Source: Sphingomonas sp. S1-29
GTDB taxonomy: Bacteria; Pseudomonadota; Alphaproteobacteria; Sphingomonadales; Sphingomonadaceae
Length of the DNA: 64,000 nt
NCBI RefSeq assembly: GCF_026167545.1
Contig: NZ_CP110678.1
Coordinates: 2,043,501-2,107,500, forward strand
Direction of reading: 5' to 3'
Shown: in pieces, positions 1-61,326 of the stretch
How the letters are laid out: each line of letters begins with the position of its first letter
Position numbering within the stretch: position 1 is the first letter of the stretch
Notes under the pieces: model-generated
The model's input: only the letters and a program-made list of their open reading frames with translations
What the model was told of the DNA's origin: nothing
The model's database searches: none
Program-made: the position numbers and the translations under genes

Positions 1-30
1 CCCCCAGCCCCTCCCTTCCAGGGAGGGGAG
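1..30. repeat. Family A palindromic repeat, one arm at window edge
   Basis: The stretch contains CTCCCTTCCAGGGAGGGGAG, the small hairpin that ends the family A elements elsewhere in the window (9295-9422, 14711-14839, 23662-23788, 42208-42332, 61199-61326). Only this hairpin and the preceding CCCCCAGCCC are visible, so the element probably continues to the left of the window. It directly follows the stop of ruvB and has no T-tract, so it is not a textbook Rho-independent terminator. Confidence 0.7.
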
Positions 31-4529: not shown

Positions 4530-4562
4530 GGGGGGTTGGGAAGAAGGCGCTTCCGTCTTGCC

Positions 4563-4642
4563 GTCACCCCAGCGAAAGCTGGGGTCTCGCGCCGCCAGCG
4601 CGCGCTTCGATCGCAGGAGACCCCAGCTTTCGCTGGGGTGAC
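4563..4642. repeat. Family C palindromic repeat (yebC-ruvC junction)
   Basis: The left arm GTCACCCCAGCGAAAGCT and the right arm AGCTTTCGCTGGGGTGAC are exact inverted complements flanking a GC-rich 44-base centre, and each arm also folds back on itself (CCCCAGC/GCTGGGG). Two further copies lie at 32397-32476 and 44889-44968. The element fills most of the gap between yebC and ruvC. A second short palindrome, CCTCCCCCGCCGGGGGAGG, follows at about 4702-4720. Confidence 0.85.
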
Positions 4643-4728
4643 GAGCATTGCCGAGGCAGCACTGTCCCCAACCGCAGCCGAACCGCCCGCGGCGGTTCCC
4701 CTCCCCCGCCGGGGGAGGATCGGCAGCC

Positions 4729-5937: not shown

Positions 5938-7280
5938 GGAAAACCCTGCCGCTGCCCGCCCAGCTTGTGCACCGCGCCGCGCCGCATGACGAAGCCGACA
6001 TCGTTCAGCCGCGCGACGTCGGCGACCGGATCGCCCGCCACCGCAATGATGTCGGCGTCCTTGCCCACCTCGATCGTGCCGATTCGATCGGCGCGGCCGA
6101 GCAGGGTCGCCGCCTCGACCGTCGCGGTGCGGATCGCGTCGATCGGCTTCATGCCCACCGCGGTCATATAGCCGAATTCGAGCCCGTTGGTGCCGTGCGG
6201 GCCGACCCCCGAATCGGTGCCGAACGCGATCTTCATGCCGCTGGCGAAGGCGCGGCGGTGGCTTTCCTTGACGACCGTGGCGACCTGTTCGGCCTTGGCG
6301 ACGCTGGCGGCGGGGCGCTCGCCCGCGCGGCCCTGGCGGATCACGCTTTCGAAGGCGTGCATCGTCGGCACCAGATACGCGCCCTTGGCCTTGAACAGCG
6401 CGATCGTTTCGTCATCGATATAGCTGCCATGTTCGATCGAATCGACGCCGGCGCGAAGCGCGGTGTCGATTCCCGACTTGCCATGCGCGTGCGCGGTCGC
6501 CTTGCGGCCAAAGGCGTGCGCGGTGTCGACGATCGCCTTCATCTCCTCGAGCGTCATCTGCGCCTCGAGCCCGCCGGCGATGTTGCTGCCGACCCCGCCC
6601 GAGGCGGCGAACTTGATGACTTCGGCGCCGGTGAAGATCTGCTCGCGCGTCGCGCGGCGGCAGTCATCGGCGCCGTTGCACAATTCGGGCGAACCCTCGC
6701 GCTCGACATGCGCGAAGTCGCGGCGCAGCCCGTTGGCGTCGCCATGGCCCGCGGTGACCGACACCATGCGACCGGCATTGACGATCGTCGGCCCCTCGAC
6801 ATCGCCGCGCGCGATCGCGTCGCGCAGCGCGCGGGTGCCGCGCGGCTCGCCGCCCAGGTCGCGGACGGTGGTGAAGCCGGCATCGAGCGTCTTGCGCGCG
6901 CTCTGCATCGCGGTGAGCAGCCCGTCTTCGAGATCCTTGGTGGTCTCGTCGAGCCGCGCCTGGAGCGGATAGCCGGTCGAATAGAGATGGACGTGCATGT
7001 CGATCAGCCCGGGCAGGACGTACTGGTCCTTGAGGTCGACCAGCTTGGCGCCGGCCTCGGGCGCGGCGAAGCCGTCGCGGATCTCGGCGATCTTGCCGTC
7101 GCGCACGACGATCGTGCTTTGCCCGCGCACGCGCTGGCCGGGGCGGTCGAGCAATTGGCCGGCGTGAATGTAGGTGACGACGGGCGCGGCGCGCGGGGCG
7201 GGTGCCGGCGGCGTCTGCGCGAAGGCGGTCGTGGCGGCAGTGGTGGCGAGCAGCGCGGCTGCCGTCAGGATCGTTCGCAT
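5928..7280 (-). CDS. Secreted amidohydrolase (imidazolonepropionase/prolidase-like)
   Basis: A 450-residue metal-dependent hydrolase of the amidohydrolase superfamily with a Sec signal peptide ([22 protein letters not shown]), so it should act in the periplasm. Metal-binding elements are in order: HxH in GLIDMHVHL (His96, His98), a probable carboxylated Lys in [10 protein letters not shown], His in AHAHG, His in SIEHGSY and the catalytic Asp in [11 protein letters not shown]. The closest well-studied relatives cleave Xaa-Pro or Xaa-Arg/Lys dipeptides, but substrate cannot be read from motifs. It starts at the first ATG, immediately before the signal peptide, and lies alone upstream of gapR. 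Confidence 0.88.
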
Positions 7281-7344
7281 TGGTGATGGTCCCCCTTGTT
7301 TGGCGGGGAAGGTAGCCGAGCGCTCGCGGAAGGAAAGCCCCCTT

Positions 7345-7370
7345 GCTCCCCTCCCTGCAAGGGAGGGGAG
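7345..7370. repeat. Solo family A hairpin
   Basis: CTCCCCTCCCTGCAAGGGAG followed by GGGAG is one arm of the family A repeat without its partner. It lies just downstream of the DUF1244 stop codon and may be the remnant of a full element or a solo REP-like unit. Confidence 0.65.
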
Positions 7371-7373
7371 GCG

Positions 7374-7817
<444 letters not shown>

Positions 7818-7822
7818 TTACA

Positions 7823-9286
7823 ATGACCAAGGCAATCGCCCCCCGTTCGCGCAAGGTGCGCATTCTCGCCACGCTGGGCCCCGCGAGCAACACGCCCGAG
7901 ATGATCGGCCGGCTGTTCGAGGCCGGTGCCGACGCGTTCCGAATCAATATGAGCCATGGCGACCAGGCATCGAAGGTGCCGGTGATCGAAGCGATCCGCG
8001 CGATGGAGAAGATCTACGACCGGCCGACGACGATCCTCGCCGATCTGCAGGGCCCCAAGCTTCGCGTCGGCCGCTTCGCCGAGGGCAAGGTGCTGCTCGA
8101 GGTCGGCAAGCGCTTCGTGCTCGATCGCGACCCGACGCCGGGCGACGCCAACCGCGTCGAGCTGCCGCACCGCGAGATTTTCGTCGCGATCGCGCGCGAT
8201 GCGCGGCTGTTGCTCGACGATGGCAAGCTGGTGCTGCGCGTCACCGATCATGACGATGAGCAGATCGTCACCGTCGTCGAGGTCGGCGGCTGGCTGTCGA
8301 ATTCGAAGGGGCTGAACGTTCCCGATGTCGTGCTGCCGATGGCGGCGCTGACCGAAAAGGATGTGAGCGACCTTGCCTTCGCGGTCGAGCAAAAGGTCGA
8401 CTGGATCGCACTGAGCTTCGTCCAGCGGCCCGAGGATCTCGCCGAGGCGCGCAAGCTGATCGGCGGCAAGACCGCCTTGCTCGCCAAGATCGAGAAGCCG
8501 AGCGCGGTCGCACGGCTCGAGGAAATCGTCGAGGCGTGCGACGGGGTGATGGTCGCGCGCGGTGATCTGGGCGTCGAACTCCCGCCGCAATCGGTGCCGC
8601 CGCTCCAGAAGCGGATCGTCGAGACCTCGCGCCGGCTCGGCCGCCCGGTGATCGTCGCGACGCAGATGCTCGAATCGATGATCACCGCGCCAACGCCGAC
8701 CCGCGCCGAGGTGAGCGACGTCGCGACCGCGGTCTATGACGGCGCCGATGCGATCATGCTCTCGGCCGAAAGCGCGGCGGGCGACTGGCCCGTCGAATCG
8801 GTCGCGATGATGGATGCGATCGCCAATGCGGTCGAGCGCGATCCGATGCATGGCGACCGCGTGCATTTCACCGTGCTCAAGCCCGACCCCACCACCGCCG
8901 ATGCGCTGGCCGAGGCCGCCAAGAACATCGCGGTGACCGCGTCGGCGAGCGCGATCATCTGCTTCACGCTGTCGGGATCGACCGCGCGGCGGATCGCGCG
9001 CGAGCGGCCCGGCGTGCCGATCCTGGTGCTGACCCCCAAGAAGGAAACCGCGCGGCGGCTGGGGCTGTTGTGGGGGGTCCATGCGGTGGTGACGCGCGAC
9101 GTCGCCTCGTTCGAGGAAATGGTCGCCAAGGCCAAGCGGATGGCGCTGCGCAACCACATCGCCAAGGGCGGCGACCGCGTGGTGGTGTGCGCCGGCGTGC
9201 CTTTCGGGATGCCGGGGTCGACCAACGTGCTGCACGTGACGCAGATCATCGGCGACGAACTGAAGAATTACCCCGGCGAGCGGTGA
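7823..9286 (+). CDS. pyk: Pyruvate kinase
   Basis: Pyruvate kinase converts phosphoenolpyruvate and ADP to pyruvate and ATP, the last step of glycolysis. The 487-residue product shows RKVRILATLGPASNTPEM at the N-terminus, the active-site segment LLAKIEKPSAV, MVARGDLGVELP and the family signature around VIVATQMLESMI, followed by the C-terminal domain with its allosteric-site fold. Length and order match bacterial type II pyruvate kinases. It stands alone between DUF1244 (divergent) and the family A repeat at 9295-9422. Confidence 0.97.
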   Translation: MTKAIAPRSRKVRILATLGPASNTPEMIGRLFEAGADAFRINMSHGDQASKVPVIEAIRAMEKIYDRPTTILADLQGPKLRVGRFAEGKVLLEVGKRFVLDRDPTPGDANRVELPHREIFVAIARDARLLLDDGKLVLRVTDHDDEQIVTVVEVGGWLSNSKGLNVPDVVLPMAALTEKDVSDLAFAVEQKVDWIALSFVQRPEDLAEARKLIGGKTALLAKIEKPSAVARLEEIVEACDGVMVARGDLGVELPPQSVPPLQKRIVETSRRLGRPVIVATQMLESMITAPTPTRAEVSDVATAVYDGADAIMLSAESAAGDWPVESVAMMDAIANAVERDPMHGDRVHFTVLKPDPTTADALAEAAKNIAVTASASAIICFTLSGSTARRIARERPGVPILVLTPKKETARRLGLLWGVHAVVTRDVASFEEMVAKAKRMALRNHIAKGGDRVVVCAGVPFGMPGSTNVLHVTQIIGDELKNYPGER

Positions 9287-9294
9287 GCTGACTT

Positions 9295-9422
9295 CCCCCC
9301 TCCCTTTCAGGGAGGGGTCGGGGGTGGGTGGAGGCCTGGAGCTACGGCAATCCGGCACCTCGACGCTGCCGTATCGCGGACACGCGACCCACCCCCAGCC
9401 CCTCCCTTCCAGGGAGGGGAGC
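9295..9422. repeat. Family A REPIN-like repeat, complete copy
   Basis: Two hairpins (CCCTCCCTTTCAGGGAGGGG and CCCCTCCCTTCCAGGGAGGGG-type) are joined by longer complementary arms TCGGGGGTGGGT and ACCCACCCCCAGC around a roughly 60-base variable centre that contains GCCTGGAGCTACGG and GCCGTATCGCGG. The element exactly fills the convergent junction between pyk and the HAD gene. This copy serves as the reference for the empty site of the IS30 insertion at 12670. Confidence 0.88.
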
Positions 9423-10055
9423 TTAAGCCAGCAGCCCCACTTCCACCAACCGCGCGCGGAACGCCGCGGCGTCGGTGAACGCGACGCTGTCGATCCCCAT
9501 CGCCCGCGCGGCCGCGACATTCGCCGGATTGTCGTCGACGAACACCGCGTCGTGCGCGCGCAACCCGAATCGGTCGAGCGCCAGCGCGTAGATCGCGGGA
9601 TCGGGCTTCACCAGCCGCTCGGCACCTGACACCACGATGTCGCGGAAGCGATCGAACAGCTGCGGCCAGGCGGCGCGGAACGCGGGCCAGAATTCGGCGC
9701 TGAAATTGGTGATCGCGAACAGCGGCACACCGGCGGCGTCGAGCGCCTCGACGATCTCGAACATCCCCGGAATCGGCCCGCCGACGCTGTCGTTGAAGCG
9801 CGGCCCCCACAGCGCGATGAGCTCGGCGTGCTCGGGGAAGCGTGCGCCGAGCTCGGCCGAGGTCTCGGCGAAGGGGCGGCCCTCGTCGTGCTGGAAATGC
9901 CATTCGGGGGTCACGACCTGCTCGACAAACGTCGAAAGCGCCCGATCGTCACCGATCAGGCGCTCGTACAAGAACCGCGGATGCCAGCTGAACAGGACGT
10001 TGCCGATATCGAAGATAACGGCGGTCGGACCGGTTGCCACTCTATGCAATCGCAA
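9423..10055 (-). CDS. HAD-IA family hydrolase
   Basis: Haloacid dehalogenase-superfamily enzyme of 210 residues. Motif I reads VIFDIGNVLF (nucleophile Asp about residue 16), motif II is in FAITNFSAEFW, the motif III Lys is in RLVKPDPAIY and motif IV is VFVDDNPANV. The DIGNVL form of motif I, lacking the second Asp of the DxD pair, is seen in the YihX/epoxide-hydrolase-like subgroup, which contains sugar-phosphate phosphatases. The substrate is unknown. rpmJ lies just upstream on the same strand with a 24-bp gap, so the two may be co-transcribed. Confidence 0.88.
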   Translation of the reverse strand: MRLHRVATGPTAVIFDIGNVLFSWHPRFLYERLIGDDRALSTFVEQVVTPEWHFQHDEGRPFAETSAELGARFPEHAELIALWGPRFNDSVGGPIPGMFEIVEALDAAGVPLFAITNFSAEFWPAFRAAWPQLFDRFRDIVVSGAERLVKPDPAIYALALDRFGLRAHDAVFVDDNPANVAAARAMGIDSVAFTDAAAFRARLVEVGLLA

Positions 10056-10079
10056 AGCGGCGACGCGGTCCGGGCAGAA

Positions 10080-10205
10080 TCAGCCCTGGCGCGCCTTGAA
10101 GCGACGGTTGGTCTTGTTGATGACGTACACGCGACCGCGACGACGGATCACGCGATTGTCGCGGTGCCGCCCCTTGAGCGACTTGAGGGAGTTGACGATC
10201 TTCAT
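10080..10205 (-). CDS. rpmJ: 50S ribosomal protein L36 (41 residues)
   Basis: Translation of the minus strand from ATG 10205 gives [20 protein letters not shown] continuing [21 protein letters not shown] and a TGA stop at 10080-10082. This is the C-minus (zinc-free, longer) form of ribosomal protein L36, 41 residues long with no Cys residues. It is not in a ribosomal-protein operon here; such lone copies are common in alphaproteobacteria. The product binds 23S rRNA in the large subunit. Confidence 0.95.
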
Positions 10206-10412
10206 GACCGATTCGCTTCTATTTGAATGGATGTGCCGGAAAGAGGCGCTCGGTTAGCGGTGGCCCCGCACCAAGTCAAGGCGAGCACCGCCGCGCAAAC
10301 CAGTGAAGCCAAATCGCAACGCGTGCGTTACAACCTGATATCGCTTGCCCGCCGGGCGGCGCGGTTGCCCATATGCCACCCCTGCCGGGGCGGTGCACAA
10401 GGACGTCGTCTC

Positions 10413-11015
10413 ATGCTTGCCAGGATCGCCATACTCTCTCTCGCCGCCCTCACCAGCGCCTGCGCGGCGGGCGGTGGCCGCAGCGGGCCAGTCAACGTCA
10501 TTCGCTACAATCTGGGCACCCCGGTCGGGCCGGGCACCTTCGGCATCGAGCCGCTGCGCACCGCGCCGACGATCAGCAGCGAATATCAGGCGCAGGCCGA
10601 TTCGGTCGCGCGCGCGCTCGAGGGGCTGAACTTTCGCCGGGTGACCGGCAACGAGCCGGCTGCGTATCTGGTCGAGATCGCGTTCAACCGCCAGGCGACC
10701 GGGCAGCGCACCCCGCCGCCGGTATCGATCGGGCTCGGCGGTGGCGGCGGCAGCTTCGGTCGCCGCGGCGGCGGCGTGGGGCTGGGGGGTGGTCTCAGCA
10801 CCGGGCTCGGCGGCGGACGCGACATCGTCGAGACCGAATTGTCGGCCAAGCTTCGCCGCCGCACCGATTCGACAGTGGTCTGGGAAGGCGCCGCGCGCAC
10901 CGTGGGCACCGCGCCGCGCGACGCGATCGAAGCCGCCAAACAGTCGGATCGCCTCGCCGATGCGCTGTTCCAGGGCTTTCCGGGCCAGTCGGGGATCACT
11001 ACTACCGTCCCATGA
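10413..11015 (+). CDS. DUF4136 lipoprotein
   Basis: A 200-residue product that begins with a lipoprotein signal peptide (MLARIAILSLAALTSAC, lipobox Cys17). The mature part has the DUF4136 pattern: INVIRYNL-like beta strand, an alternating ARALEGLNFRRVTGNEPAAY region and the later DSTVVWEGAARTVGT segment. A long Gly-rich insertion (GLGGGGGSFGRRGGG and more, about residues 104-133) splits the domain. Function unknown; lipoproteins of this family are probably envelope-located. Longer in-frame starts upstream lack a signal peptide. The stop overlaps the next gene by ATGA, indicating co-transcription. Confidence 0.8.
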   Translation: MLARIAILSLAALTSACAAGGGRSGPVNVIRYNLGTPVGPGTFGIEPLRTAPTISSEYQAQADSVARALEGLNFRRVTGNEPAAYLVEIAFNRQATGQRTPPPVSIGLGGGGGSFGRRGGGVGLGGGLSTGLGGGRDIVETELSAKLRRRTDSTVVWEGAARTVGTAPRDAIEAAKQSDRLADALFQGFPGQSGITTTVP

Positions 11016-12130
11016 CGATCGAGATCAGCGCCGCGTTCGACAGCGGCAACATCGAACTGGTGGGGATCGAGGGCGACCGAGTCGACCTCGAGATTCGCCG
11101 CGACGCCCATTCGGATTTCTTCCAGTGGTTCCACTTCCGCGTGTCGGGCGCGGCGGGTCGGACGCTGACATTCCGCATCCTCAACGCGGGCAAGGCGGCC
11201 TATGCCTTCGGCTGGCCGGGCTATCGCGCGCGGGTGAGCAGCGATCAGGTCGAATGGCCGATGACCGACACGGCCTATGCCGATGGGGTGCTGAGCTTCA
11301 CCCACCGGTTCGAGGGCGACGCGGCGTGGTTCGCCTATTTCGCGCCCTATTCGATGGAGCGGCACCGCGAGACGGTGGCGCGGATCGCCGCGATGCCCGG
11401 CGTTTCGCACCGCTCGCTCGGCAATTCGCTCGACGGCCAGCCGATCGATTGCCTGCAGATCGGCGATGGCCCCAAGCAGGTCTGGTTCTATGCGCGCCAG
11501 CATCCGGGCGAATCGATGGCCGAATGGTTCATGGAAGGGCTGCTCGAAAAGCTCACCGATCCCGACGATGCCATCGCGCGCGCGCTGCGCGAAAAGACGA
11601 CGCTCCATTGCGTCCCCAACATGAACCCCGACGGATCGGCGCGCGGCCATCTGCGCACCAATGCCGCGGGGGTGAACCTCAACCGCGAATGGCACGCGCC
11701 CACCCCCGATCGCAGCCCCGAAGTGCTCGCGGTGCGCGACGCGATGGACGTAACCGGCGTGACCTATGCGATGGACGTCCATGGCGACGAGGCGATTCCG
11801 GCGAACTTCATCGCGGGGTTCGAGGGCATCGCGTCGTGGACCGACGCGCATGGCGCCAAATTCTACGATTACGGCCGGCGGCTCGCGGCGAACACGCCGC
11901 TGTTCCAGACCGAGCGCGGCTATGAGAAATCGGCGCCGGGGCGCGCCAATCTGTCGATGTCGACCAACCAGCTCGCCGAGCGCTTCGGCGCGGTGTCGAT
12001 GACGCTCGAAATGCCGTTCAAGGATCATGATCCCTCGCCCGACCCGGTGTATGGCTGGTCGCCCGATCGATCGAAGCAATTGGCGCATGCGTGTCTCGTG
12101 ACGCTCGCCGAGGTGATCGACACGCTGTGA
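11012..12130 (+). CDS. M14 zinc carboxypeptidase, cytosolic carboxypeptidase-like
   Basis: The 372-residue product has an N-terminal beta-rich domain (about 1-120, with FFQWFHFRVSGAAGR and YSMERH) typical of cytosolic carboxypeptidases, then an M14 catalytic domain. Zinc ligands are His164 and Glu167 in RQHPGESMAEW and His257 in DVHGDE; the substrate-binding NLNREW and the catalytic Glu333 in TLEMPF are present. There is no signal peptide, so it should be cytoplasmic. Eukaryotic relatives remove C-terminal or side-chain glutamates; the bacterial substrate is not known. It overlaps the upstream DUF4136 gene by 4 bp and the downstream GNAT gene by 1-3 bp, forming a three-gene operon. Confidence 0.9.
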   Translation: MTIEISAAFDSGNIELVGIEGDRVDLEIRRDAHSDFFQWFHFRVSGAAGRTLTFRILNAGKAAYAFGWPGYRARVSSDQVEWPMTDTAYADGVLSFTHRFEGDAAWFAYFAPYSMERHRETVARIAAMPGVSHRSLGNSLDGQPIDCLQIGDGPKQVWFYARQHPGESMAEWFMEGLLEKLTDPDDAIARALREKTTLHCVPNMNPDGSARGHLRTNAAGVNLNREWHAPTPDRSPEVLAVRDAMDVTGVTYAMDVHGDEAIPANFIAGFEGIASWTDAHGAKFYDYGRRLAANTPLFQTERGYEKSAPGRANLSMSTNQLAERFGAVSMTLEMPFKDHDPSPDPVYGWSPDRSKQLAHACLVTLAEVIDTL

Positions 12131-12585
12131 TGCGGGTCGCGCAGGGCGAGCTGAAGCATCCGGCGGTCGTGGCGCTGCTCCAGCAGCATTTCGATTCGAT
12201 GCTCGCGCATTCGCCGCGCGGCGCGTGTCATTTCCTCGATCTGTCGGGGCTCGCCGCGCCCGAGGCGACCTTCCTGACCGCGTGGGAGGGCGAAACGTTG
12301 CTCGGCTGCGGCGCGCTCAAGGCGATCGATGCCGGGCATGGCGAAGTGAAGTCGATGCGCACTGCCGATCAGGCGCTGCGCCGCGGGGTGGCGGCGACTT
12401 TGCTGACTGCGATCGTGGAGGCCGCGCGCGCGCAGGGGATGACCCGGCTGAGCCTGGAGACCGGATCGGGCGAGCCCTTCGCGGCGGCGGTGGCGCTGTA
12501 TTTGCGCCACGGCTTCGACTGGTGCGAACCCTTCGGCGACTATGAAGCGACGCCGTTCAACCGTTTCATGACGAGGGCGATCTAG
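12130..12585 (+). CDS. GNAT family N-acetyltransferase
   Basis: A 151-residue acetyltransferase-fold protein. It has LGCGALKAI (beta 4), the acetyl-CoA binding region around MRTADQALRRGVAATLLTAI and LSLETGSGEPFAAAVALYLRHGFDWCEPF, matching the GNAT core over its length. Such small single-domain members modify diverse small molecules or peptides; the substrate cannot be assigned. ATG at 12130 overlaps the stop of the upstream carboxypeptidase, so the two products are probably made together. Confidence 0.85.
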   Translation: MRVAQGELKHPAVVALLQQHFDSMLAHSPRGACHFLDLSGLAAPEATFLTAWEGETLLGCGALKAIDAGHGEVKSMRTADQALRRGVAATLLTAIVEAARAQGMTRLSLETGSGEPFAAAVALYLRHGFDWCEPFGDYEATPFNRFMTRAI

Positions 12586-12592
12586 GCGCCCT

Positions 12593-12669
12593 TCTCCCCT
12601 CCCTGGAAGGGAGGGGTCGGGGGTGGGTCGAGGCCTGGAGCTACGGTCACCCGGCATCCCGATGCCGCC
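12593..12669. repeat. Left half of family A repeat split by IS30
   Basis: The sequence TCTCCCCTCCCTGGAAGGGA, GGGGTCGGGGGTGGGTCGAG and GGCCTGGAGCTACGG matches the left part of the intact copy at 9295-9422. It breaks off at GATGCCG, where the IS30 inverted repeat begins. The missing right half continues after the IS at 13894. Confidence 0.85.
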
Positions 12670-13893
12670 GGTGGGTTCAACGGGTGGTCGCAACGCATCA
12701 TTCTCATGATGAGAGGAGTGGTGCGATGAAGCAGCGTCGTCGGATATATTACTCGGCCGCTCAGCGGGCGGAGATCTGGGATCGGTGGCAGCGCGGAGAG
12801 TCGATGAGTTCGATTGGTCGCGGCTTTGAGCGGGAGAGCTCGTCGATCTTCTCGGTGCTCTCCCCGTCGGGCGGGATCCGCCCACCCGATCGGAAGCGAT
12901 CCGGGCGCGCGCTCAGCCTGGCCGAACGCGAAGAGATATCCAGAGGTCTGGTCGCCGGCCGTTCACTGCGCGCCATTGCAGTCCAGCTCGACCGCGCGCC
13001 GTCAACGATCAGCCGGGAGGTCGGCCGTAACGGTGGCGCCGATCGGTATCGTGCCACGCTATCGGATCAGGCGGCATGGGACCGCGCGCTGCGCCCGAAG
13101 CGCTGCAAGCTCGCTTGCCACCCGGGCTTGCGACGAACAGTATCACGCAAGTTGCGCCGCAAATGGTCGCCAGAGCAGGTTGCGGGCTGGCTCAAGCATA
13201 GCTTTCCGGACGAAGACCAGCATCGCGTGTCACACGAGACGATCTACAAGAGCCTTTATATTCAGGCGCGTGGCGTCCTCAAGAAAGAGCTGCTTGCGCA
13301 TCTGCGGGCGAAGCGCACGATCCGGCGCTCGCGCCACGCCAGCTTGAAGCGCGACGGGCTCGGCCAGATCAAGGATGCGATATCGATCAGCGAACGGCCT
13401 GCTTCGGTGGAGGATCGCGCCGTGCCCGGGCACTGGGAGGGCGATCTGATCTCGGGGGCGCGAGGCAGCCATGTCGTGACGCTGGTCGAGCGCCAGTCGC
13501 GCTACGTGATCCTGGCCAAGGTCGCGAACAAGGAGACTGCCAGCGTCGTCTCGGCGCTGATCAAGCAGGCGCGCAAACTGCCCCACGAACTCTATCGATC
13601 GCTGACCTGGGATCGCGGCAAGGAACTTGCCGACCATCGGCGCTTCACTCTCACAACCGACGTTGCCGTCTACTTCTGCGATCCTCAGAGCCCATGGCAG
13701 CGCGGCACCAACGAAAACACCAACCGCCTGTTGCGCCAGTATCTGCCCCACGGCGTCGATCTGTCGACCTTCAGCCAGGCCCAGCTCAGCACCATCGCAA
13801 GACAGCTCAACGAGCGGCCGAGAAAAACCTTGATGTACCAAACGCCAGCTGAGAAGTTCGCTGAGAGCGTTGCGGCGATCGGTTGAACCCACC
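12670..13893 (+). mobile_element. IS30-family insertion sequence, about 1.2 kb
   Basis: The element is bounded by inverted repeats GGTGGGTTCAAC (12670-12681) and GTTGAACCCACC (13882-13893). The similarity extends to about 27 bp per end with 23 matches, including an internal CGCAACGC block. One intact transposase gene fills the interior and its stop codon lies within the right repeat. The flanking bases CC on both sides fit a 2-bp target duplication, within the short duplications usual for the family. The insertion interrupts a family A palindromic repeat rather than a gene. Confidence 0.9.
12726..13886 (+). CDS. IS30-family transposase
   Basis: The 386-residue product begins [20 protein letters not shown]. 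It has two N-terminal helix-turn-helix segments, the second with the IS30 hallmark [13 protein letters not shown] and [24 protein letters not shown] catalytic core follows: first Asp in [10 protein letters not shown], second Asp in LTWDRGKEL and Glu in [19 protein letters not shown], the last block being characteristic of IS30. The gene looks intact (no frameshift or internal stop) and is preceded by GAGAGGAG at a usable distance from the ATG at 12726. Confidence 0.95.
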
Positions 13894-13947
13894 CCGTATT
13901 GCGGACACTCGACCCACCCCCAGCCCCTCCCTTTCAGGGAGGGGAGG
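13894..13947. repeat. Right half of family A repeat split by IS30
   Basis: CCGTATTGCGGACACTCGAC followed by CCACCCCCAGCCCCTCCC and AGGGAGGGGAGG matches the right half of the intact family A copy at 9295-9422. Joining it to 12593-12669 restores a complete element. Confidence 0.85.
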
Positions 13948-14020
13948 AGACGCGCGGTTTGCCTCCCCCGCTCCAGCCGCTAGAGCGACGCCTTCCCCCG
14001 CCCCGTCCGGAGACGCCCCC

Positions 14021-14707
14021 ATGCCAACGCTCGTCCTGATCCGCCACGGCCAGTCGGCCTGGAACCTCGAAAACCGCTTCACCGGCTGGTGGGACGTCGA
14101 CCTGACCGACAAGGGGGTCGAAGAGGCCAAGGCCGCGGGCCGGCTGCTTGCTGAGAAGGGCTTCGATTTCGACCTGTGCTTCACCTCGGTCCAGAGCCGC
14201 GCAATCCGCACGCTCAACCTGGCGCTCGAGCAGATGGGGCGGCTTTGGCTGCCGGTCGAGAAGGACTGGCACCTCAACGAGCGGCATTATGGCGGGCTGA
14301 CCGGACTCAACAAGGCCGAGACCGCGGCGAAGCACGGCGACGAACAGGTCCATATCTGGCGGCGCAGCTTCGACGTGCCGCCGCCGCCGATCGAGCCCGG
14401 CAGCGAATATGACCTGTCGGCCGACCGCCGCTATGCCGGCATCGCCATCCCCGCGACCGAGAGCCTGAAGGACACGATCGCGCGCGTGCTGCCCTATTGG
14501 GAATCGCGCATCGTCCCCGAGCTGAAATCGGGCAAGCGCGTCGTGATCTCGGCGCACGGCAATTCGCTGCGCGCGCTGGTCAAGCATCTGTCGGGGATTT
14601 CGGACGACGAGATCACGAGCCTCGAGATCCCGACCGGCCAGCCGATCGTGTACGAATTGAACGATGCGATGGCGGCGACCGACCGTTATTATCTGAGCGA
14701 GCGGTGA
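14021..14707 (+). CDS. gpmA: 2,3-bisphosphoglycerate-dependent phosphoglycerate mutase
   Basis: This enzyme interconverts 3- and 2-phosphoglycerate in glycolysis. The 228-residue product has the phosphohistidine motif [12 protein letters not shown] (His9), the active-site loop [14 protein letters not shown] and the second catalytic His in [12 protein letters not shown], all diagnostic of the cofactor-dependent type. The ORF is open upstream to 13883, but that region is repeat sequence; ATG 14021 gives [10 protein letters not shown], the family start. Confidence 0.96.
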
Positions 14708-14710
14708 GAC

Positions 14711-14839
14711 TCTCCCCTCCCTGAAAGGGAGGGTTCGGGGGTGGGTCGAGGCCGGGCAATACGGCTGCGCTGGTCCGTGACCCCTGCCGTATCACGAGCA
14801 CGCCACCCACCCCCAGCCCCTCCCTGAAAGGGAGGGGAG
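14711..14839. repeat. Family A REPIN-like repeat, complete copy
   Basis: Hairpins CTCCCCTCCCTGAAAGGGAG (left) and CCCTCCCTGAAAGGGAGGGG (right) are joined by GGGGGTGGGTCGAG and the complementary CCACCCACCCCCAGC around a variable centre with CTGCCGTATCACG. It starts 4 bp after the gpmA stop and separates gpmA from argG. Confidence 0.87.
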
Positions 14840-14924
14840 CAGTGCGCAGCCCAGGACGAACGGTATTCCTTCGCATCGTCCATTCGCCTAAACGCCCCCG
14901 CATCACCATCCCCGGAGCCTGCCC

Positions 14925-16142
14925 ATGACCGACCCCGTCAATCGCGTCGTCCTCGCCTATTCGGGCGGGCTCGACACCAGCGTCATCCTCAAATGGCTCC
15001 AGCAGACCTATAATTGCGAGGTCGTCACCTTCACCGCCGATCTCGGCCAGGGCGAGGAGCTCGAGCCCGCGCGCGCCAAGGCCGAGATGATGGGGGTCAA
15101 GCCCGAGCATATCTTCATCGACGATCTGCGCGAGGAATTCGTCGGCGACTATGTCTTCCCGATGATGCGCGCCAATGCGCTGTACGAGGGGCTGTACCTG
15201 CTCGGCACCTCGATCGCGCGCCCGCTGATCGCCAAGCGCCAGATCGAGATCGCGCGGATGGTCGAGGCCGATGCGGTCAGCCACGGCGCGACCGGCAAGG
15301 GCAATGACCAGGTCCGCTTCGAACTCGGCTATTACGCGCTCGCGCCCGACATCAAGGTGATCGCGCCGTGGCGCGAATGGGATCTGACCAGCCGCACCGC
15401 GCTGATCGCCTATGCCGAGCAGCACCAGATCCCGGTGCCCAAGGACAAGCGCGGCGAGGCCCCCTTCTCGACCGACGCCAATCTGCTCCACACCTCTTCC
15501 GAGGGGCTGGTGCTCGAAGACCCCTGGGCCGAAGTCCCAGGCTATGTCTTCTCGCGCACCGTCGATCCCGAGGATGCGCCCGACAAGCCACAGGTCATCG
15601 AGATCGAATTCGAACATGGCGATCCGATCGCGATCGACGGGCTTTCGATGACGCCCGCGGTGCTGCTCGCCGCGCTCAACGATCTCGGCCGGACGCACGG
15701 CATCGGCCGGCTCGACCTGGTCGAGAACCGCTTCGTCGGCATGAAGTCGCGCGGAATGTACGAGACCCCCGGCGGCACGATCCTGCACGCCGCGCACCGC
15801 GCGATCGAGCAATTGACGCTCGATCGCGGCGCAGCGCACCTCAAGGACGAGCTGATGCCGCGCTATGCCGAGCTGATCTACAACGGCTTCTGGTTCAGCC
15901 CCGAGCGCGAAATGCTCCAGGCGGCGATCGACCTGAGCCAGAAGAAGGTCAACGGCATGGTCCGGCTGAAGCTCTACAAGGGCGGCGTCCATGTGATCGG
16001 CCGCCAATCGCCCGATTCGCTCTATTCGGAAAAGGTCGTGACCTTCGAGGACGACGCCGGCGCCTATGACCAGCGCGACGCCGCGGGCTTCATCAAGCTA
16101 CAGGCACTGCGCCTGCGCCTGCTGGGCCGCCGCGACCAGTAA
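14925..16142 (+). CDS. argG: Argininosuccinate synthase
   Basis: ArgG condenses citrulline and aspartate with ATP hydrolysis to argininosuccinate, the penultimate step of arginine synthesis. The 405-residue product shows the PP-loop [11 protein letters not shown] near the N-terminus, the citrulline/aspartate-binding block [23 protein letters not shown] and [13 protein letters not shown]. Length and motifs match type I synthases. The ATG at 14925 is preceded by GGAG at suitable distance. Confidence 0.97.
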
Positions 16143-16148
16143 GCGGCG

Positions 16149-17351
16149 CTATCGCTCGACCGTGGCAATCACGGTCGAGCGATATTGCACCACGAACAAC
16201 CCCCAGAGCAGCAGCGCGATGCCGGGGATTCCCGCCGCGACCAGCACCATTCCCAGCTGCGCCGCCATGAAGCCGCCGAGCACCAGCCGCCGCTCCCAGC
16301 CCTGCAGTCGCGGCACGTACAGCAGCATCCCCGCCGCCATCGCCGACACCGTCAGGTCGTAGTTGAACGCATAGGGCAGCACCAGGAAGGTCGCGGTGGC
16401 GGCGAGCAGCGCCACTTGCTCGATACTGCCGCGCCGCGCGGCATGCACCACCATCGCCGCCGCGAGCGCCGCCTGCGCCCAATGGATCGCGAACGCGGTC
16501 ATGCGGGGCATCGACCAATGCAGTAGCCCGGTGGCGAGCGAGGTCGACATGAAGCGGAAGAAACTGTTCCCCGCATCGATCAGCGCCGCCTGCACGCCGA
16601 GCGTGACGGTGACATATTCGATCCAGCGATCGATCCCGAACAGCGCCGCGCTGCCCGCGACCAGCAGCACCACCGTCACCGCCGCCGCCCCGATCGCGCG
16701 CCACTCGCCGCGCGCCAGCAGCACCAGCGGCACCAGGATCGCGATATGCGGCTTGATCGCCAGCAGCCCGAAGCAAATCCCCGCCAGCACCGGGCGGGCC
16801 TCGAGGTTGCGCCAGCCATACAGCAGCAACCCGCCGATCAGGAATCCGTAATGCCCCGCCCAGATGTTGATGAGCCCCGCGGGCGTGGCCAGCACCAGCC
16901 ATGCCGGCAACCCGGTCGCACGTTCCCACCATGGCCGCGCGGCGCGCACGAAGAACCACCCCGTTGCCACCAGCCACGCCAGCAACGCGACCGGATAGGG
17001 CAGCAGCCCGAATGGCAGCACCAGCGGCAGGGTGAGCGGCGGATAGGAATAATTATGCTGCCCGATCCGCCCGAACTGTTCGAGCTGGAAGCGATGATAG
17101 CCCGCCAGATCGTATAGCAGCTCGAGCCGGCCCTCGATCAGCAGCCGCCCCGCGGTCCAGACATTGACGAAATCGCGCCCCCAATAGGCGCCGGGCGAAA
17201 CCATTCCGGCGTCGAGATGGCGCAGATCGACCGCGAACAGGCCGAAGACGACAAGATTGCCGACGATCCAGGGGGCGAGCCATGCCCAGCCGCGCATCGG
17301 CTCGCCGCCGCCAGACCGCGCTGCGCGCGGCGAACCGATCATGTCCCCCAT
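16149..17351 (-). CDS. GT87/DUF2029-like multi-pass membrane glycosyltransferase
   Basis: The 400-residue product is an integral membrane protein with about nine to eleven hydrophobic helices, starting at WLAPWIVGNLVVFGLFAVDL. After the first helix comes GRDFVNVWTAGRLLIEGR and a Tyr-rich segment with YSYPPLTLPLVLPFGLL, the pattern of the DUF2029/GT87 family of polyprenyl-phosphate-dependent mannosyltransferases (GT-C fold). Another conserved stretch is LLAIKPHIAILVPLVLLARGEW. The acceptor is unknown. The ATG at 17351 is used, but ATG 17342, preceded by GGGGGAC, is equally possible. Confidence 0.75.
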   Translation of the reverse strand: MGDMIGSPRAARSGGGEPMRGWAWLAPWIVGNLVVFGLFAVDLRHLDAGMVSPGAYWGRDFVNVWTAGRLLIEGRLELLYDLAGYHRFQLEQFGRIGQHNYSYPPLTLPLVLPFGLLPYPVALLAWLVATGWFFVRAARPWWERATGLPAWLVLATPAGLINIWAGHYGFLIGGLLLYGWRNLEARPVLAGICFGLLAIKPHIAILVPLVLLARGEWRAIGAAAVTVVLLVAGSAALFGIDRWIEYVTVTLGVQAALIDAGNSFFRFMSTSLATGLLHWSMPRMTAFAIHWAQAALAAAMVVHAARRGSIEQVALLAATATFLVLPYAFNYDLTVSAMAAGMLLYVPRLQGWERRLVLGGFMAAQLGMVLVAAGIPGIALLLWGLFVVQYRSTVIATVER

Positions 17352-17456
17352 CAGGTCGTCTTACCACCAGCGACTTACCGCGGCGTTATCGCTTGTGCGG
17401 CAGACCGCAGCGATCGCCGCTTGTCGGCGCGGCGCTCGGCTCGCTAAGGCGGCACG

Positions 17457-19160
17457 ATGCAGGCGGTGGGCGACGAACGACTGAACTGGTGGCAGACGCG
17501 GTGGTTCGTGGCGGCGATGGCGTTCGTCGCGGCGATCCCGCTGCTGCTGCCCGACGTGCCGCCGTTGGTCGACCTGCCGGGCCATCTGGGGCGCTGGCGG
17601 GTGCAGCAGTCGATCGGCCAGGCGCCCTGGCTGGCCGACTGGTATAATTTCGAATGGCAGCTGATCGGCAATCTCGGGATCGACCTGCTGGTCGTGCCGC
17701 TCGAGCCGTTGCTGGGGCTCGAGCTCGCGGTAAAGCTGATCGTGATCGCGATTCCGGTGCTCACCGCGGTAGGATTGCTCTGGATCGCGCGCGAGGTGCA
17801 CGGGCGCATCCCCGCCACCGCCCTGTTCGCGCTGCCGATCGTCTACAGCTTCCCCTTCCATTTCGGCTTCGTCAATTTCGCGCTGGCGATGGCGCTGGCG
17901 CTCAATGCCTTCGCGCTGTGGCTGCGGCTCGCCAGGCTGGGGCATATCCGGCTGCGCGCGATCCTGTTCGTCCCGCTCGGCCTCGTGCTGTGGGTCACGC
18001 ACACCTATGGCTGGGGACTGCTCGGCGTGCTCGCCTTTTCGGGCGAGCTGATCCGCCAGCATGATCGCGGGCGCAACTGGTTCATCGCCGCGTTCTTCGC
18101 CGGGCTCCATTGCATCGTGCTGCTGCCGCCCGCGATCCTGATGCTGGTGTGGCGCACCGGCGGCGACGTCACCGGGCAGACCGCCGACTGGTTCAACTGG
18201 CGGATCAAGGCGCGCTGGGTGCTGATGATCTTTCGCGACCGCTGGGAATTGCTCGACATGGCGACGCTGGCGGCGTGCTTCCTGCTGCTGCTCAAGGGCG
18301 TGCGCGATCCCGCGATCGAATATTCGCGCAATCTGAGCCTGTCGGCACTGTTCCTGCTCGCGGTCTATCTGCTGCTGCCGCGCATCGTCTTCGGCTCGGC
18401 CTATGCCGATATGCGGCTCGCGCCCTTCCTGCTCGGCATCGCCTTGCTGGCGCTGCGCCCCAAGGCGGGGCTGTCGATCCGCGGCGCGTCGGTGGTCGCG
18501 GCGATCGGGATGGCGTTCTTCGTCGGGCGCGTGGCGGCGACGACGGTGAGCTTCTGGCAATATGACCAGAGCTATGACCGCCAGCTCGCCGCGCTCGACA
18601 AGCTGCCCGTCGGGGCGCGGCTGCTGACCTTCATCGGCGAGACCTGCCGCGACGAATGGACGATGTCGCGGCTCGAGCACCTCCCGGCGATGGCGCTGAC
18701 GCGCAAGCTCGCCTTTTCGAACGATCAATGGTCGATGGCGGGCGCGCAGATGCTGACGGTGAAATACGATCCCGGGCGCGGCTTCAACCATGACCCCTCG
18801 CAGATCGTCACCGACGTCAAATGCCCGCGGCAATATTGGCGGCCGATCGCGGTGGCGCTGACGCGCTTCCCGCGCAATGCGTTCGACTATGTCTGGATGG
18901 TCGATCCGCCGGCCTATGACCGCCGGCTCGAAGCCGGGCTCACGCCATTATGGCGCGACGGCAACAGCGCGTTGTTCCGCGTCGAGGACCGGCGGCCGCC
19001 GCGCTTGCTGATGCAGGATCTTGGCCCCTATGGGCCCGAATATTTCGAGGCGATCAGCCGCCGCCGGGCTTTCGGAAAGGCGTCATCTCGCCCAGGAACA
19101 CCTGTTCCTGCGCCACCGCCTCGCGCTCGCGCGCCAGGAAGTCGGCCACCGCGCGCCTGA
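17457..19160 (+). CDS. Multi-pass membrane protein of unknown function, GT-C-like layout
   Basis: A 567-residue protein with about ten hydrophobic segments in the first 370 residues and a soluble C-terminal third (about 375-530). The order of first TM helix, an extracytoplasmic acidic loop (PPLVDLPGHLGRWR) and further helices resembles GT-C membrane glycosyltransferases, but no diagnostic motif was found. The C-terminal part includes FIGETCRDEWTMSRLEHLPA and DYVWMVDPPAYDRRL. The last roughly 35 residues are Pro/Arg/Ala-rich and encoded opposite the end of the convergent DUF482 gene (107-bp overlap). It is divergent from the GT87-like gene, with 105 bp between. Confidence 0.7.
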   Translation: MQAVGDERLNWWQTRWFVAAMAFVAAIPLLLPDVPPLVDLPGHLGRWRVQQSIGQAPWLADWYNFEWQLIGNLGIDLLVVPLEPLLGLELAVKLIVIAIPVLTAVGLLWIAREVHGRIPATALFALPIVYSFPFHFGFVNFALAMALALNAFALWLRLARLGHIRLRAILFVPLGLVLWVTHTYGWGLLGVLAFSGELIRQHDRGRNWFIAAFFAGLHCIVLLPPAILMLVWRTGGDVTGQTADWFNWRIKARWVLMIFRDRWELLDMATLAACFLLLLKGVRDPAIEYSRNLSLSALFLLAVYLLLPRIVFGSAYADMRLAPFLLGIALLALRPKAGLSIRGASVVAAIGMAFFVGRVAATTVSFWQYDQSYDRQLAALDKLPVGARLLTFIGETCRDEWTMSRLEHLPAMALTRKLAFSNDQWSMAGAQMLTVKYDPGRGFNHDPSQIVTDVKCPRQYWRPIAVALTRFPRNAFDYVWMVDPPAYDRRLEAGLTPLWRDGNSALFRVEDRRPPRLLMQDLGPYGPEYFEAISRRRAFGKASSRPGTPVPAPPPRARAPGSRPPRA

Positions 19161-20199
19161 AGCCCGGGTTGGGCAGGTAATGCGCCGACCAGGTGGTGAT
19201 CGGCGCATAGCCGCGCGCCAGCTTGTGCTCGCCCTGCGCTCCCGCTTCGACGCGCTGCAGCCCGCGCGCGATCGCCACGTCGATCGCCTGGTAATAGCAA
19301 AGCTCGAAATGGAGGAAGGGCACGTCCTCGGTACAGCCCCAATAACGGCCATATAGCGCGTCGTCGCCGATCAGGTTGAGCGCGGCGGCGATCGGGCGAC
19401 CGTCGCGTTCGGCGACGATCATCAGCACGCGATCGGGCATCCGCTCGCCGAGCAGCGAGAAGCACGCGCGCGTCAGATAGGGCCGGCCCCATTTGCGGCT
19501 GCCGGTGTCCTGGTAGAAGACCCAGAAGGCATCCCAATACGCCTCGGTGATCTCGGCGCCGGTCAGGTGGCGGATCGTCAGCCCCTCGACCGCGGCGGCG
19601 CGTTCTTTGCGCACCCCCTTGCGCTTGCGGCTGGCGAGCGCGCCGAGGAAATCGTCGAAGCAGCCATAACCCTCGTTCGCCCAATGGAATTGGGTTCCCT
19701 GGCGGATCAGCCAGCCCGCCGCCTCGAAATGGCCGATCTGGGCTTCGTCGACGAAGGTCGCGTGCGCCGAGGATAATTCGTTCTGGTCGGTCACCGCCTC
19801 GATCGCGGCGATCAGCGCGGGGGCTTGGCGCTCGTCGCGCAGCAACAGTCGGGGGCCGGGCACCGGGGTGAAGGGCGCGGCGATCTGGAGCTTGGGGTAA
19901 TAAGTGCCGCCGGCGCGATCCCAGGCATCGGCCCAGCCCTGATCAAAGACATATTCGCCCTGGCTGTCGGCCTTGGCATAAGCGGGCACCGCGCCCGCGA
20001 TCCGGCCATCGGGCCCGTCGATCACGATCGGCGCCGCCTGCCACCCCGAGCGCCCGCCGACCGACCCCGATTCCTCGAGGATCGACAGGAAGGCGTGGCT
20101 GACAAAGGGGTTGCCCGAGCCGGCACAGGCGTCCCACTGGTCGGCGGGCAGGCCCGAGACGCCCTTGGCGATCCGCGCGAGAATGGGGGTGTCGCTCAC
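19054..20199 (-). CDS. DUF482/GNAT-fold peptidogalycan-type acyltransferase
   Basis: A 381-residue protein matching the DUF482 (FemAB-like GNAT) family. Recognisable segments are GNPFVSHAFLSILEESGSVG, ASRKRKGVRKERA, YWDAFWVFYQDTGSRKWGRP and LHFELCYYQAIDVAIARGL, then EAGAQGEHKLARGYAP, in family order. The biochemical role is not established. The frame is open to 20562, but the extra codons run opposite the mscS 3' end and look non-coding. The GTG at 20199 gives VSDTPILARIAKGVSGLP with the family length. It is the last gene of the sseA-metC-mscS run, 69 bp below mscS. Confidence 0.82.
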   Translation of the reverse strand: MSDTPILARIAKGVSGLPADQWDACAGSGNPFVSHAFLSILEESGSVGGRSGWQAAPIVIDGPDGRIAGAVPAYAKADSQGEYVFDQGWADAWDRAGGTYYPKLQIAAPFTPVPGPRLLLRDERQAPALIAAIEAVTDQNELSSAHATFVDEAQIGHFEAAGWLIRQGTQFHWANEGYGCFDDFLGALASRKRKGVRKERAAAVEGLTIRHLTGAEITEAYWDAFWVFYQDTGSRKWGRPYLTRACFSLLGERMPDRVLMIVAERDGRPIAAALNLIGDDALYGRYWGCTEDVPFLHFELCYYQAIDVAIARGLQRVEAGAQGEHKLARGYAPITTWSAHYLPNPGFRRAVADFLAREREAVAQEQVFLGEMTPFRKPGGG

Positions 20200-20267
20200 C
20201 CCGGCAGATGTAGAGCGGTTCGGCGCGGCTGCAACACCGCCATCGGGCCCAAACTCGCCTTCGGCTT

Positions 20268-21560
20268 TCAATCGGTTACCGCTGCCGGCGCCGCGGCGGG
20301 CCAGTTGCGCACATGGATGTCGCGCTGCGGGAACGGGATTTCGATGCCATGTTCCTTGAACAGCCACCACAGGCGGTTGAGCACGTCGGAGCGGACATTG
20401 CCGATGCCGCTTTCGGGATCGCTGACCCAGGCGAGGATCTCGTGCTCGACCGCATTGTCGCCGAACGCCGCGAGCCAGACATTGGGCTTGGGGCTTTTGA
20501 GCACGCGTGGGCTGTCGTTGGCGGCGCGCAGCATCAGCTCCTGCGCCAGCTTGAGGTCGCAATGGTATGAAACGCCGACCGGAATCCGCACGCGCACGTT
20601 GCGATCGGAGAAGGACCAGTTCTCGACCTCCTGCGTCATCAGATTCTCGTTGGGAATCAGATGCTCCTTGCCGTCGCGCGTGATGATGCTCACCGCGCGG
20701 ACCCCGATCTTGTTCACCTGCCCCACCGCCTCGCCGATCACGATGACATCGCCGGGCTTGATCGACCGGTCCATCAGCAGGATGATCCCGGCGATCAGGT
20801 TACCGATCGTCTTTTGCAGGCCGAAGCCGATCGCCAGCCCGAACGCACCGCCGAAGATCGCGAAGGTCGTCAGGTCGATGCCGAGCATGTCGACGCCGAC
20901 GAAGAAGGCGACGACGATCACGATGATCCCCGCCAGCTTCTGGAACAGCAGCTTCTGCGCGGGGTCGAAGCCGCGCGCCTGGCCGATCGCATGGTTGATC
21001 ACGCGGTTGGCGAGCCGCGCAATCGCATAGATCGCCACCGACGCGATGATCAGCGTGACGACCGAAAGCAAGGTGATCCGCTTCGATCCGACCTCGACCC
21101 CGATCCGCCCGAGTACCGTGGTGACCGGGGTAAGTCCGCCGACCGAATAGCTGAACAGCGACAGGAAGACGAACCCGGCGACCCCCCACGACACCCAGCG
21201 CGACAGGTTGGCACCGCGCAGCAGCGCGACCGTCGCGCGCGCCGCGGCGGCGCTGAGCGCGAAACCGATCGGCAGCGTCGCCAGCGCCGCCCAGCCGCGC
21301 GACGCCAGGATGATCGCCAGCAGCAGCGCGGCGCTGAGATGACGAACGATTGCGCAGATTCGCGGCTGGAACGGCCCGTCCTTCAGCCCGGCGCGGTCGG
21401 CGGCGAGCTGCGCCAGCCGCGGGCCGACCGTGCGCGAGGTGTACCAGCCGATCGCCAGCGCAGCGATCGTCAGCGCGCCGGCGATCGCGGCCTCGATCAA
21501 TTGCGGCTGGGTCGGCACGGTGAAGCCGTTCGCCGCGAGCCAGGTTGCAGCGACGTTCAT
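20268..21560 (-). CDS. MscS-family mechanosensitive ion channel
   Basis: A 430-residue inner-membrane channel protein. It has about five predicted helices, with the pore-lining segment in TTFAIFGGAFGLAIGFGLQK followed by TIGNLIAGIILLMDRSIKPGD. Next come the beta domain (VIVIGEAVGQVNKIGVR, LIPNENLMTQEVENWS) and the C-terminal alpha/beta domain ending in the typical FPQRDIHVRN. Such channels release solutes under hypo-osmotic shock. Its ATG overlaps the metC stop (ATGA at 21557-21560), so it is translated from the sseA-metC transcript. Confidence 0.93.
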   Translation of the reverse strand: MNVAATWLAANGFTVPTQPQLIEAAIAGALTIAALAIGWYTSRTVGPRLAQLAADRAGLKDGPFQPRICAIVRHLSAALLLAIILASRGWAALATLPIGFALSAAAARATVALLRGANLSRWVSWGVAGFVFLSLFSYSVGGLTPVTTVLGRIGVEVGSKRITLLSVVTLIIASVAIYAIARLANRVINHAIGQARGFDPAQKLLFQKLAGIIVIVVAFFVGVDMLGIDLTTFAIFGGAFGLAIGFGLQKTIGNLIAGIILLMDRSIKPGDVIVIGEAVGQVNKIGVRAVSIITRDGKEHLIPNENLMTQEVENWSFSDRNVRVRIPVGVSYHCDLKLAQELMLRAANDSPRVLKSPKPNVWLAAFGDNAVEHEILAWVSDPESGIGNVRSDVLNRLWWLFKEHGIEIPFPQRDIHVRNWPAAAPAAVTD

Positions 21561-23592: not shown

Positions 23593-23661
23593 ATTTTCTC
23601 TCCTGCGGGGTCGTCGGCGCAACTCTAGAGCATCCGGGATCGGGGGCAACACCCGCTACTT

Positions 23662-23788
23662 CTCCCCTCCCTGAAAGGGAGGGGCTGGGGGTGGGTCGAG
23701 TAGGGGGTTCACCGAACCGCGGGTGCTCCGGGTAACCGTATCGCCCGGACCGTACCCACCCCCGACCCCTCCCTTTTAGGGAGGGGAG
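23662..23788. repeat. Family A REPIN-like repeat, complete copy
   Basis: Left hairpin CTCCCCTCCCTGAAAGGGAG and right hairpin CCCCTCCCTTTTAGGGAGGGG-type arms are connected by GGGCTGGGGGTGGGTCGAG and its complement ACCCACCCCCGACC around a variable 60-base core. It separates the sseA promoter region from the end of the photolyase gene. Confidence 0.87.
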
Positions 23789-23792
23789 AAGG

Positions 23793-42207: not shown

Positions 42208-42332
42208 CTCCCCTCCCTGGAAGGGAGGGGCCGGGCGTGGGTCGAGTGCTCGCGCTACGGCGGCGACAGGTGCGAGGAGAGCCATCTCCAGGCCCCTACC
42301 CACCCCCAACCCCTCCCTTTCAGGGAGGGGAG
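42208..42332. repeat. Family A REPIN-like repeat, complete copy
   Basis: Hairpins CTCCCCTCCCTGGAAGGGAG and CCCCTCCCTTTCAGGGAGGGG-type arms flank GGGCGTGGGTCGAGTGCTCG and CTACCCACCCCCAACC, the usual complementary inner arms, around a variable core. It separates the E2 gene from the PP2C gene on the same strand. Confidence 0.86.
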
Positions 42333-61198: not shown

Positions 61199-61326
61199 CT
61201 CCCCTCCCTGAAAGGGAGGGGCCGGGGGTGGGTCGAGTGCTCGCGATACGGAAGCCGCACGCGCAACAGCAACCATATCCCCAGGACGCTACCCACCCCC
61301 AACCCCTCCCTAGGAGGGAGGGGAGA
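61199..61326. repeat. Family A REPIN-like repeat, complete copy
   Basis: CTCCCCTCCCTGAAAGGGAG at the left, GGGGGTGGGTCGAGTGCTCG inside, TACCCACCCCCAACCCCTCC and CTAGGAGGGAGGGG at the right. The variable core differs from other copies (AACAGCAACCATATCCCCAG). It fills the gap between the transglutaminase and the DnaJ-like gene. Confidence 0.86.

Follow-up and report, generated by a model that had tools for sequence, protein, structure and literature searches.

In the window analysed here (64 kb, positions 2043501-2107500 of a single closed 3,376,213-base contig), the gap between the stop codon of a pyruvate kinase gene, which ends at 9286, and the HAD hydrolase gene that converges on it from the minus strand (9423-10055) is occupied by a palindromic element (9295..9421) that recurs several times in the same stretch. 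The original prediction likened this element, which we call family A, to the REPINs that RAYT transposases mobilise in other bacteria. The locus thus raises the question of what kind of repeat family A is, whether it has spread by copying and, if so, what kind of enzyme might have moved it.

Five complete copies and one split by an insertion sequence had been predicted in the window, and all of them were found in their places. Repeat finding resolved six left parts of 80 nt and, in register with them, six right parts of 53 nt; the hairpin pairs of the five complete copies start at 9297/9399, 14714/14817, 23664/23766, 42210/42310 and 61201/61303. In the copy behind the pyruvate kinase gene, the left hairpin (9297..9317) has the form CCCCTCCCT-NNN-AGGGAGGGG and is followed by two pyrimidines (the left joint TC, 9318..9319, mispaired with the right joint), the left arm GGGGGTGGGT (9320..9329), a box and a short core, after which the inverted counterpart presents the right arm ACCCACCCCC (9387..9396), the right joint AG (9397..9398) and the right hairpin (9399..9419). 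Each of the other complete copies closely follows a stop. The one at 14712..14839 is 6 nt past that of a histidine-phosphatase-family (phosphoglycerate-mutase-like) gene and upstream of the argininosuccinate synthase gene. For the remaining three, the gene that stops is on the minus strand: it belongs to the DPRP family at 23662..23788 (6 nt away), encodes a 2-oxoacid dehydrogenase E2 at 42208..42332 (5 nt) and is transglutaminase-like at 61199..61325 (5 nt). The split copy (12594..13946, hairpins at 12596 and 13924) comes after the end (12585) of a GNAT acetyltransferase gene, and its core is interrupted by an IS30-family insertion sequence (12670..13893, plus strand) with a transposase gene at 12684-13886 and the ends GGTGGGTTCAAC/GTTGAACCCACC. 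This insertion may have produced a 2-bp duplication (CC), and the IS30 end GGTGGGTTCAAC is similar to the family A arm in the form GGTGGGTCGAG. The two single arms also predicted were confirmed in part: the one at 7345 is indeed a lone hairpin (7348..7368), but without an arm, while positions 1..30 are not a single arm but the right end of a larger copy that starts to the left of the window, at about 2043347, and whose left hairpin is broken by another palindromic insert. This insert, AGTGCCGGGT...ACCCGACACT, was seen in the stretch 2043301-2043700.

Other repeats share the window with family A. A second untagged dimer family of the same plan is present at 30468-30599 and 43202-43324, with the hairpin CCCTCTCCCC-NNN-GGGGAGAGGG, a 2-nt joint and the arm GGGAGAGGGG; the copy at 43202 has a mispaired joint (CC/AA) and lies in frame within the E2 acyltransferase gene, where it accounts for some 41-45 linker residues before the E3-binding domain. 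CGTC-tagged palindromic dimers (CGTCACCCCAGCGAAAGCTGGGGTCT) at 4562-4646, 32396-32480 and 44888-44972 resemble the published CGTC class of REPs (PMC3733652, partial text), and a pair of 108-nt direct repeats (81% alike, 125 nt apart) occupies 62275-62507.

The genome-wide count that the original prediction called for shows that family A is a high-copy family; its copies are mostly extragenic. We found 165 hairpins with at most 2 mismatches (0 with the reversed-pattern control), and 73 + 77 = 150 cases of hairpin, joint and arm together (again 0 in the control); a BLAST search with the 9295 copy gave at least 81 genome matches on both strands, with 40 of 129 candidates scored. Within the window, 14 hairpins were matched with up to 3 mismatches, while 20 first-order Markov controls together gave 1. 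Chance palindromes, which a GC-rich genome might be expected to supply and which the prediction itself had named as an explanation that could undo it, are excluded by these controls, and together with an assembly artefact have no credibility for a family that lies on a single closed contig and whose arms are found in 93 of 151 congeneric genomes. The window carried no Rfam match at gathering score, and plasmid records held no family A match. DNA taken around places located by BLAST or by pattern (40 stretches), together with the window, contained 49 hairpin pairs 60-125 nt apart. Once two tandem-array units, a 91-spaced pair and two short copies had been left aside, 44 copies of a long class (spacing 98-104) remained, on which the following analyses were done. 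A short class with a smaller core was seen at eight places, including one 91-spaced variant, and a tandem array of three units with a 110-nt period and shared hairpins is present at 2427172-2427517.

Oriented by their boxes, all 44 long-class copies can be aligned as a single asymmetric unit of about 125-129 bp, composed of two inverted half-units. Each half-unit consists of a 21-nt hairpin, a 2-nt joint, the 10-nt arm GGGGGTGGGT and a semi-conserved box, and the two enclose a variable core of about 22 nt. The bipartite plan proposed earlier, two small hairpins with complementary arms, therefore holds, although the conserved block is longer than described, since it comprises the hairpin, the joint and the arm, followed by the box. 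The expectation that cores vary while arms are conserved was borne out by the alignment: mean pairwise identity (n=44) was 0.95 for the left hairpin, 0.98 for the left arm and 0.79 for the left box, fell to 0.38 in the core, and was 0.64, 1.00 and 0.94 for the right box, arm and hairpin. A strand of the element can be folded either as a single long hairpin or as two small hairpins plus a stem. Folding z-scores ranged from -5.9 to -6.8 for the RNA of three copies, and were -5.3 and -5.5 for the two DNA strands of one copy.

The two halves of a copy are systematically unlike. Both joint bases differ between halves in 40 of the 44 copies, where 13.6 would be expected; taken singly, the first differs in 42 (23.8 expected with halves reshuffled) and the second also in 42 (23.3 expected). 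In 36 copies the joints pair as CT/GA, TC/AG, TT/GG or CC/AA, that is, as C.A or T.G at both positions, and none of the 44 has fully complementary joints. The same tendency was observed in 66 copies from other species, with the first joint base unlike in 64 (39.9 expected), the second in 47 (34.6 expected) and identical joints in a single copy against 13.2 expected. Boxes behave in a similar way, one A box being combined with one B/C box in 29 of 33 clearly typed copies (16.7 expected) or, without the typing filter, in 36 of 44, the rest being five B/C-B/C and three A-A. Hairpin loops showed no such heterotypy (13/44 identical, 14.4 expected). Joint and box are combined in random phase (20:16), and for the two joint bases the phase is close to random (24:12, p 0.065). 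Heterodimers are common in REP families, a preference that according to one report "has no obvious explanation" and for which escape from SbcCD has been suggested (PMC3733652, partial text). If protection from a hairpin nuclease were the full reason, perfect pairing should be avoided in general; this idea is weakened by the fact that 10 of the 44 copies keep perfectly inverted 21-nt hairpins and still have a mispaired joint. The same source, recounting earlier work, indicates that pairing up the mispaired residues of an E. coli REP abolished cleavage by the RAYT (PMC3733652, partial text). Three accounts of the unlike halves are possible: a hairpin-binding enzyme or nuclease may require or spare mispaired joints, the inner parts of a heterodimeric ancestor may have undergone repeated inversion between the arms, or dimers may have been put together from two half-types.

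Evidence that family A is copied as a unit comes from the copies at 434656 and 2108593, which are 93% identical over boxes and core and have unrelated flanks. The copied unit is thus the whole dimer, with borders within some 2-5 nt of the outer hairpins. Family A also differs between species. In a relative that is 90% identical at pykA (G136), examined over 66 kb with partly conserved synteny, family A is missing at 9295, 12593, 14711 and 23662 in conserved synteny; the first site has a palindrome of another type (GTCATTCCCG...CGGGAATGAC), and the other three have no more than short hairpins that are unrelated or degenerate. Nor does the aligned stretch contain the lone hairpin of 7345, and the comparison covers the sites other than 42208 and 61199, where the neighbourhood is rearranged. 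When the pykA end was compared in 29 other species, six had elements with the same arms and other cores, about 10 had palindromes of other sequence (by eye) and the remainder neither; in one of the species compared, nine bases separate the two stops. Between metW and ssb, also in 29 other species, one had a same-arm element, at least four had palindromes of other sequence (by eye), and one showed a short gap without any element before the apparent end of ssb.

No exact empty site with identical flanks appeared among the relatives compared, nor did we see a copy gained or lost inside a single species, so that it is from the differences between species that we infer movement, with transposition as the probable process. 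Direct matches flanking the 44 copies were not in excess at any offset or length tried, which gives no sign of a target duplication; the search for the partner of a MITE covered the IS30 family. That insertion sequence, whose transposase has a single match in the genome at E 1e-10, was ruled out as autonomous partner, as its one copy is an insertion into a family A core; no other partner was found. The state of G136 at 12593 and 23662 suggested that copies had been inserted at the tip of ancestral terminator hairpins. We rejected this idea, since complementarity between the flanks of the 44 copies does not exceed the chance level (mean run 3.27, 3.35 when shuffled).

Outside the genus, which is probably Sphingomonas in the broad GTDB sense, the element was not found by BLAST in 24 genomes belonging to other genera within the same order. 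Exact arm patterns were present, among the matches listed, in Sphingopyxis, Sphingobium, Hephaestia and others, and also in metagenome-assembled genomes (MAGs) of rumen Prevotella and Bacteroidaceae. The 33-nt end block was noticed at fourteen loci of Prevotella/Bacteroidaceae MAGs, and in the paired cases the hairpins are inside and the tails point outward. A Prevotella RAYT was considered as the source of the arms and discarded, the hairpin being near none of 18 Y1 loci; Y1 matches were found in 10 of 12 Prevotella-type genomes, and the three loci typed resemble IS200/IS605.

Taken together, these observations make it likely that family A is a non-autonomous, REPIN-like (or MITE-like) palindromic dimer that has spread by insertion, is kept behind stop codons, is moved in trans by an enzyme other than a RAYT, and probably acts as a two-way 3'-end structure. 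The copied unit would be the whole dimer of about 125-129 bp, with its two inverted half-units around a short variable core, and insertion without target duplication would have spread it within the genus to places that differ between species. Copies would persist where they are least harmful, and maybe helpful: directly past stops, for the most part where two genes converge or in the gap that separates a gene from the next one downstream. At such places, a very stable DNA or RNA hairpin may form and probably serve as a 3'-end structure in both directions, either protecting mRNA ends or causing pausing and insulation between convergent genes. The mover would act in trans and would not be a RAYT encoded in this genome.

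Two other readings have to be weighed against this one. If family A elements were true REPINs, moved now or in the past by a RAYT lost from the lineage or acting from elsewhere, their architecture and the copying of the dimer would be accounted for, both matching published REPINs (PMC3116915, partial text), and RAYT-like genes do occur in the genus, with NF047646 detecting them in 8 of 151 genomes (2 above cut-off), 7 of which have at least one arm. We nevertheless regard this as distinctly improbable. Mobilisation by a resident RAYT finds no support in the genome itself, where NF047646 found no RAYT and PF01797 found a single Y1 gene, frameshifted (2623036-2623391), that scores 98.8 bits as IS200/IS605 (cut-off 55) and 25.4 bits as RAYT (cut-off 80). 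The 6 kb surrounding this gene contain not one family A hairpin; by eye, the frameshifted transposase adjoins a 436-aa ORF resembling TnpB. The original prediction had itself named the lack of a RAYT-like gene as grounds for refutation, and on this point the genome speaks against it. A RAYT flanked by the same arms, which the original prediction suggested looking for, is thus not present here, nor does any of the RAYT-like loci examined in congeneric genomes have a family A hairpin within about 1.5 kb. PF01797 had matches in two of 36 congeneric genomes, and at least three element-rich relatives had no Y1 family match at E 0.001. Of the 93 genomes with arms, 7 have RAYT-like genes, as does 1 of the 58 that lack arms; the figure is 2 of 28 at 20 or more arms and 0 of 15 at 50 or more. 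Fisher tests, which ignore phylogeny, showed no significant association with arm number at any threshold over the 151 genomes. The near-identical pair of copies suggests recent activity without a resident RAYT, and the GTAG tag is missing at the 88 half-units. For this genome, the RAYT explanation is therefore largely refuted. REPINs are usually explained by RAYTs, and here a large, recently active-looking family of the same anatomy inhabits genomes without one; either RAYTs are dispensable, or they are lost quickly and outlived by the repeats.

The other reading starts from where the copies lie. According to gene calls made with our own simple GC3-based method, the stop of an inward-facing gene is at most 15 nt from the border in 34 of the 44 own copies, with most gaps of 2-8 nt and the stop 11 nt inside the hairpin in four copies; fifteen have an inward gene end close on both sides, and several convergent gene pairs are separated solely by the element and a few bases. 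Uniform placement in the intergenic space of the window would bring 8.5% of copies this close to a stop, or 14.6% when it is confined to gaps bordered by an inward gene end. For other species the figure was 30 of 57 assessed copies, that is, the 66 (a few of which have a different hairpin) minus 9 too near the end of their locus; the 66 come from 119 stretches of other genomes, of which the 14 titled Prevotella or Bacteroidaceae were set aside and 39 without title retained. Family A could accordingly be a host-serving 3'-end element, kept and spread for ending or protecting transcripts as a mobile terminator or insulator, with mobility as a secondary trait. Besides this placement, it is favoured by a report that E. 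coli REPs no more than 15 nt from a stop lower translation (PMC12306157, partial text) and by 10 of the 66 other-species copies, whose core has a terminator-like hairpin with a T-rich tail; in seven of these, a stem of 10-12 bp encloses a CTCGA-type loop. Six loci show a strong intrinsic-terminator-like hairpin of this sort between the same ends. A comparison of two pykA loci (L210 and L231) had suggested arms enclosing the native pykA terminator, which was dropped as a general model since similar terminator-bearing cores recur elsewhere in several species; the elements themselves seem to carry the terminator there and, where such cores lie past stop codons, they would be mobile terminators, which is a lead. 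Against this reading, none of the 44 own cores has a U-tract, which leaves a terminator role unsupported here, and no terminator-like site was found at the elements within 7000-24500. Relatives manage without the element at the same gene ends, and the placement, published for GTAG and CGTC REPs including CGTC-1 of S. wittichii (PMC3733652, partial text), is a shared property of the class that may merely mark where insertions are tolerated. We consider it unlikely that service to the host is what drives the family, and favour a mobile palindromic dimer moved in trans, for which the original prediction of a REPIN-like, mobile architecture stands on the conserved inverted ends, variable spacer, high copy number, intergenic setting, unit copying and presence or absence between species.

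A bolder version of the preferred reading, which we put forward as speculation and hold to be rather doubtful, is that this REPIN-like family replicates independently of Y1 transposases, and that the mechanism forces every copy to consist of two unlike halves, as if inner segments were inverted or half-types assembled; the end block in Prevotella would then suggest that the machinery recognising these ends spans phyla.

Among known repeats, the BIMEs of E. coli are mosaics of inverted REPs behind genes, linked to RAYTs and to the GTAG tag and often clustered. Family A has in common with them the inverted repeats behind genes, and differs in the other features. The enterobacterial RU-1 repeats are also named ERIC and are not known to have a transposase. 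They share with family A their size (about 127 bp), intergenic setting and MITE-like character (PMC2759123, partial text), but sequence and hosts are unrelated, and family A is distinguished by terminal hairpins that stand apart and by its hypervariable core. Closer in its hosts is the CGTC class of REPs of Alphaproteobacteria, including S. wittichii, whose members are also mostly dimers, with heterodimers common, most convergent copies less than 20 bp from both ORF ends and, as far as the available text goes, no dedicated transposase (PMC3733652). Family A likewise consists of dimers adjoining the 3' ends of ORFs and has no dedicated transposase, so heterodimers, gene-end placement and the lack of such an enzyme are traits already known from that class. 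It is set apart from the CGTC REPs described in the available text by its different stem (CCCCTCCCT, with a 3-nt loop), its long conserved inner arm and the lack of the tag, CGTC being found at the hairpin edge of 1 of 88 half-units (PMC3733652). What is new is the untagged sequence, of which we found no earlier description among the listed papers on Sphingomonas repeats or containing AGGGAGGGG, most subscription papers lying outside the search. With the REPINs of Pseudomonas, family A shares inverted conserved ends, a variable spacer, an extragenic setting, copying of the dimer and a possible long hairpin; it differs in its conserved block (33 nt versus the REPIN 16-mer), in its systematically non-identical halves, and in lacking both the RAYT and the tag, with 0 GTAG and 1 CTAC near the hairpin edges of 88 half-units (PMC3116915, partial text). 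On account of these last two differences we do not file family A as a REPIN, although it is like one in form and probably in copying, and its rule of unlike halves offers a concrete handle on the published puzzle of REP heterodimers (PMC3733652, partial text).
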